Source: Candidatus Nitrosopumilus sp.
GTDB taxonomy: Archaea; Thermoproteota; Nitrososphaeria; Nitrososphaerales; Nitrosopumilaceae
Direction of reading: 5' to 3'
Assembly: GCA_029864235.1 (NCBI GenBank)
Contig: JAOTTW010000001.1
Location: 1 to 64,000, forward strand
Length of the DNA stretch: 64,000 bases
The notes beneath the pieces are model-generated. The model searched no databases and had not been told where the DNA came from. It was given only the letters and a program-made list of their open reading frames with translations. Positions 35,315 to 35,968 of this stretch are shown in pieces. The translations under genes and the position numbers were made by a program. How positions within the stretch are numbered: the first letter of the stretch is position 1; each line of letters starts with the position of its first letter.

Positions 35315-35812
35315 TTGGGACTTCAAAGTAAGATGATTGTCTACGCTGCAATTGTAGGTTTACTAGGTATGATGGGAGTAATTGTATACTATGCAAGTTT
35401 AGATAATCCACAATTAGAACAGGTTGAAATTAGTTTAAGTGAAGTTATAGTAAGGGATGTGAATAAAATTGAAAATACTGCAAAATTGGAAGTTTCATTT
35501 CTTGTAAAGAATCCAAGTGAAAAAACATTTACTGTACCAATTATTAGCTATCAATTGTTTGCTGATGGACAATTGTTAGGTTCAGGTCAATATTCTACTG
35601 AAGATATTTCAATGCCAGGCAGAGCAGTATTTTATCCAGGTGCAGAAGTTCCATTGAAAAATAGATTTGTTCTATCAGAGTCTAATGTAGATTCTGAAAT
35701 ATATAACTCAGTTTTAAATGATGAAATCACTAATTTTACTGCTGAAGGCAGTATAACAACTGAAACTACTTGGAGTGTTATTGAAAAAGAATTCAAGAGT
35801 AGTTTAAATTAA
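35315..35812 (+). CDS. Membrane-anchored LEA14/WHy-like protein (paralogue 2)
   Basis: About 165 residues from the TTG at 35315, which gives MGLQSK before the membrane helix (about 8-27), matching the short basic N-terminus of the other two paralogues. A longer form from TTG 35273 adds a CTEC-containing 14 residues, and ATG 35333 is also possible. The body shows the WHy pattern: AKLEVSFLVKNPSEKTFTVP, ISYQLFADGQLLG, FTAEGSI. Outside-facing beta-sandwich. Convergent with the tRNA-Val gene, which begins 5 bases past the stop. Confidence 0.65.
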   Translation: MGLQSKMIVYAAIVGLLGMMGVIVYYASLDNPQLEQVEISLSEVIVRDVNKIENTAKLEVSFLVKNPSEKTFTVPIISYQLFADGQLLGSGQYSTEDISMPGRAVFYPGAEVPLKNRFVLSESNVDSEIYNSVLNDEITNFTAEGSITTETTWSVIEKEFKSSLN

Positions 35813-35816
35813 AAAG

Positions 35817-35890
35817 TGGGTCGAGTGAGATTCGAACTCACGATCACCGCCGTGTCGAGGCGGTATCCTAACCAGCTAGACTACCGGCCC
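35817..35890 (-). tRNA. tRNA-Val (GAC), with unusual C33
   Basis: 74 bases fold as a cloverleaf: acceptor GGGCCGG/TCGACCC (with a C4-A69 mismatch and G7-T66 wobble), D-stem GTCT/GGAT with a 9-base loop, perfect anticodon stem CCGCC/GGCGG with loop TCGACAC, five-base variable loop, T-stem GTGAG/CTCAC with TTCGAAT. The anticodon at 34-36 is GAC (Val), and discriminator A73 fits Val. Position 33, almost always U, is C. CCA is not encoded. Confidence 0.85.
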
Positions 35891-35968
35891 ATTGAAGTAC
35901 AAAACTAGTTACTGACATTATTAACGTTTAACAAAAGCATGAAATGATGGTAAAAGAGGTTAAAGGAA

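Follow-up and report, generated by a model that had tools for sequence, protein, structure and literature searches.

Position 33 of elongator tRNAs is U almost universally, and this residue makes the U-turn. In this turn, U33 makes contacts through its N3-H and its 2'-OH, and the N3-H donor is missing in C33. In the Sulfolobales, C33 is present clade-wide in tRNA-Cys(GCA), where it is known from gene sequences; the tRNA could not be isolated in that study, which therefore gives no mature base (PMC7668247). C33 is also found in the eukaryotic initiator tRNA-Met (PMC9023262), and the U33C mutant of yeast tRNA-Gln(CUG) (sup70) has a phenotype (PMC3664417). In the archaeon Methanopyrus kandleri, 30 tRNAs have C rather than U at position 8 in the gene, and C8-to-U8 editing has been shown (PMC3695527). 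Here, we describe a tRNA-Val(GAC) gene of an ammonia-oxidizing archaeon of the Nitrosopumilaceae in which the conserved U33 is replaced by C.

A tRNA-Val(GAC) gene with C at position 33

The window analyzed here is a stretch of DNA of 64,000 nt, and its sole tRNA gene, located on the minus strand at 35817-35890, is tRNA-Val(GAC). ARAGORN calls this gene at 35816-35890 (minus), and Rfam RF00005 matches 35817-35890 (minus) over the full length of the model (1-71) with 55.4 bits. The gene is 74 nt long, has neither an intron nor an encoded CCA, and reads GGGCCGG UA GUCU AGCUGGUUA GGAU A CCGCC UCGACAC GGCGG UGAUC GUGAG UUCGAAU CUCAC UCGACCC A. It forms a complete cloverleaf with the anticodon GAC (positions 34-36; 35854-35856, minus) and has A35, C36 and A73; all stem pairs are standard or G-U with the sole exception of C4-A69. 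The anticodon loop (35852-35858, minus) is U32 C33 G34 A35 C36 A37 C38. Its position 33 (35857, minus) is C, and in this the gene departs from the U33 that is expected of a functional elongator tRNA. RNA folding gave no alternative pairing of note in loops with C33 or with U33.

The initial annotation had pointed to C33 and to an acceptor mismatch, and had not regarded the gene as an obvious pseudogene. All three points stand: C33 is seen in the sequence and in the ARAGORN structure, and the same base recurs in independent genomes of many species; C4 (35887) does face A69 (35821, minus); and the gene is the sole Val(GAC) gene of its genome, with C33 kept over the whole clade. The mismatch is confined to the source genome (G000) among 26 distinct 74-nt C33 sequences, while all congeners have C4-G69 and one relative (G086) has U4-A69. 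C4-A69 has no visible tie to C33. It would be either a separate, private change, an intermediate between C-G and U-A, or a single-base error of the draft assembly, the latter being possible because C4-A69 is limited to this genome.

The only GUU/GUC reader in the genome

The source genome is 1.68 Mb in size and 99.7% complete. U33 is present in 36 of its 37 distinct tRNAs, a count of the tRNA loci resolved by ARAGORN to which a few intron-bearing ones (e.g. L136) do not belong, and the lone C33 is that of tRNA-Val(GAC). This gene is single, no further tRNA-Val(GAC) gene being present in the genome at that completeness, and the other Val tRNAs have the anticodons UAC and CAC and both have U33. 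As the only tRNA with a GAC anticodon in the genome, tRNA-Val(GAC) is expected to read GUU and GUC. Together, these two codons make up 51.2% of the Val codons at C33 loci and 50.9% at U33 loci; for the window, the share is 54.5%. Because the share in C33 lineages is about half of all Val codons and is like that of the U33 relatives, GUY codons are neither rare nor avoided in these lineages, and codon demand on the tRNA is high.

Some other tRNA loci of the same genome have features of their own. The gene for tRNA-Val(CAC) (L130, G000:C13:13855-13947, plus strand) has ~20 extra bases between the anticodon stem and the T-arm, possibly a non-canonical intron. L137 (G000:C64:7348-7436, minus strand; 35.7 bits) is tRNA-like with a long variable arm and the apparent anticodon GAA, and is present besides a normal tRNA-Phe(GAA) (L021); the combination of a type-II structure and a Phe anticodon is unusual, and L137 may be degenerate or of mobile-element origin. 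L138 (G000:C109:24023-24079, plus strand) matches the tRNA model in part (positions 8-63, 31.7 bits); its anticodon loop is CAU-like, the acceptor stem is left unmatched, and the locus could be an interrupted gene or a fragment.

Conservation of stems, loop and flanking sequences

Stems and loop were compared among the 26 distinct 74-nt C33 sequences, one of which is from G267, a genome of another family. Anticodon-stem pairs change jointly (C-G to U-A and C-G to G-C), positions 33-37 (C33-G-A-C-A) are invariant, and positions 32 and 38 vary. The GG, CC and some of the D-stem mismatches in the tabulated stems come from one 73-nt gene (G247) that was aligned out of register. With a single Val(GAC) gene and this pattern of change, the only GUY tRNA of the genome is under purifying selection. 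As a side observation, U50 opposes U64 in the T-stem of many C33 relatives (L075, L089, L139 and others; two sequence types with 18 copies in all), a mismatch that the gene in the window does not have.

Upstream of the gene, TTTGTTAAACGTTAATAATG (35916-35935, minus; -26 to -45 relative to the 5' end) is a putative archaeal tRNA promoter, an assignment suggested by its conservation while the flanks diverge. In nearly all of the 30 loci compared, TTAAACGTTAATAAT lies within -26 to -45, while the flanks are mostly 75-83% identical to those of the source genome. A similar upstream block precedes the gene in most of the U33 relatives displayed. Immediately 3' of the tRNA is an oligo-T (35811-35815, minus), a probable terminator, and most of the 30 loci have an oligo-T after the 3' end.

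Distribution and origin of C33

The same tRNA with C33 is present in close relatives of the source genome and, more widely, in at least 177 of 250 Nitrosopumilaceae genomes from 17 genera. To arrive at these numbers, the 250 genomes were scanned with two matched patterns that differ at position 33 alone. The C33 pattern matches 172 genomes in 16 genera, and five more C33 genomes (G006, G247-G249 and G097), with other D-loops or undetermined bases, fall outside it. The U33 pattern matches 34 genomes, all in the genera g5, g9, g15, g18 and g19; together with seven more outside the pattern, U33 is found in 41 genomes of five other genera, including Nitrosotalea. The rest of the 250 genomes, many of which are incomplete, are without a C33 or U33 call. 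None of the 250 genomes has a C33 and a U33 Val(GAC) together, and a reversion from C33 to T33 occurs in none of the 177 C33 genomes. The named records with C33 are from Nitrosopumilus, Nitrosarchaeum, Nitrosotenuis, Nitrosopelagicus and Cenarchaeum, those with U33 are from Nitrosotalea, and the outgroup families listed for the order and the class also have U33. The C33 loops are UCGACAC or UCGACAU; in Nitrosarchaeum-like genomes, the loop is CCGACAU. Matches to CGACAC in G212, G275, G313, G345 and G335 were rejected because they are not tRNAs by ARAGORN.

To place these changes, we used a tree of a single marker, a 658-aa protein encoded in the window. In this tree, all 17 sampled core C33 genomes fall into one group (support 99/98), the U33 genome G015 is the sister of this group (99/94), the other U33 genera lie outside, and the outgroups have U33 with the exception of G267. 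By the pattern scan and the tree, C33 in this elongator tRNA is clade-wide; it is a clade trait that is old and kept. The data fit a single change at the base of the core family, after the Nitrosotalea-like lineages had split off, in which an ancestral loop C32 U33 GAC A37 C38 would have become a C33 loop.

C33 is also present in G267, while G251 of that same family has U33. A nitrilase-like gene adjoins the tRNA in G267 (L302, G267:C16), in G251 (78% identity) and in G250 (59%), and since this neighbor is common to the three genomes, the G267 locus belongs to its own lineage. We judged it unlikely that C33 in G267 stems from contamination, as the nitrilase-like neighbor is 78% identical to that of G251, where it lies beside a U33 tRNA. 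The anticodon arm of G267 is identical to that of some core members. C33 in this genome may represent a parallel change, or it may have arrived by gene conversion or transfer; both readings are possible.

Discussion

Based on these comparisons of gene sequences, we suggest that tRNA-Val(GAC) is probably a working elongator tRNA and the sole reader of GUU and GUC, that its C33 goes back to the ancestor of the core Nitrosopumilaceae and that it is used unedited. In this model, the change from U33 to C33 would date to the common ancestor of the core group, after the split of the Nitrosotalea-like lineages, and the mature tRNA would keep C33 and decode efficiently. The anticodon loop with C33 would take a U-turn-like conformation in which the contact between the N3-H of U33 and the phosphate is dispensed with, and the archaeal ribosome would tolerate the resulting tRNA. 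Because a change of U33 to C alters function elsewhere, namely in yeast, a compensating feature is to be expected in the C33 tRNA; none was identified in tRNA-Val(GAC).

Alternatively, a site-specific deaminase could convert C33 to U33 after transcription, similar to the C8-to-U8 conversion in Methanopyrus tRNAs. Editing of this kind, which the initial annotation had named as a possibility, would restore the universal U33 and has a precedent in archaeal C-to-U tRNA editing; elsewhere, C can even become pseudouridine, by TrcP (PMC9553926). However, if C33 were edited to U33, nothing would hold the genomic base at C, and a genomic change from C33 to T33 should then be neutral. In genomes with ~30-37% G+C, as in the window, a C-to-T change should also be easy, and yet none of the 177 genomes has T33 although positions 32 and 38 change. 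This disfavors editing. In addition, a search with PF00383 and PF14437 recovered a single gene from every genome of the family that was tested, be it a C33 or a U33 genome, and none that tracks C33; the gene of the source genome resembles ComEB/dCMP deaminase and is below the curated cut-off. With neither T33 nor a deaminase of these families specific to the C33 clade, we regard editing of C33 to U33 as unlikely. To our knowledge, editing has not been described at tRNA position 33. That the core Nitrosopumilaceae have an unrecognized enzyme that acts on C33 of tRNA-Val(GAC), either by converting C to U or by modifying the C so that the U-turn is restored, is a broader proposal that we consider conceivable but on balance rather unlikely; if true, such an enzyme would mean that mesophilic marine archaea edit a tRNA at position 33.

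A special decoding role, also raised early on, would imply that C33 deliberately alters the decoding of GUU and GUC, making it slower, more accurate or regulatory, or that it serves a second role of the tRNA. Selection does seem to maintain C33, and G267 evolved or acquired it anew. However, the codon usage reported above lends no support to such a role, GUY being about as common as in the U33 relatives and not avoided, and a tRNA that alone carries GAC in its genome must serve general translation; we find this explanation doubtful. That the gene is a pseudogene, or an assembly or sequencing artefact, is hardly credible even with two departures in a single gene and C4-A69 confined to one genome, because it is the sole GAC gene, has covarying stems, a conserved upstream block and an oligo-T, and because C33 is carried by 177 independent genomes of many species and is no sequencing error, so that this reading is refuted for C33, and the artefact reading stays for A69 alone.

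The reading that we prefer, a C33 tRNA used unedited, means that a major group of abundant marine archaea would retain C33 in the sole tRNA for very common codons, and this runs against the textbook rule for U33. The sister lineages with U33 give an unusually clear phylogenetic contrast and, thus, a natural experiment in culturable organisms, e.g. Nitrosopumilus maritimus. The question that it addresses is whether passage through the A site requires the U33 contact, or whether an editing or modification step has yet to be recognized.

In the literature searched, subscription papers and GtRNAdb being outside the search, we found no report of C33 in a thaumarchaeal tRNA-Val. C33 in tRNA-Val of the Nitrosopumilaceae is thus a second, independent case of a rare kind, after tRNA-Cys of the Sulfolobales. 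As in the Sulfolobales tRNA-Cys(GCA), C33 extends over a whole clade in an archaeal elongator tRNA, and both cases are known from gene sequences. However, the Sulfolobales tRNA, with its G27-U43 pair, is another isoacceptor in another archaeal class, whereas tRNA-Val(GAC) has no intron, has U32 or C32 and has intact stem ends. The eukaryotic initiator tRNA-Met is similar in that C33 replaces U33 in a functional cytosolic tRNA, but the initiator enters at the P site while tRNA-Val(GAC), as an elongator, must pass the A site. Finally, in M. kandleri, as here, an archaeal tRNA gene has C in place of a conserved U; there, the change concerns position 8 in 30 tRNAs and is edited, while in the Nitrosopumilaceae it concerns position 33 in one tRNA and is known from the gene.
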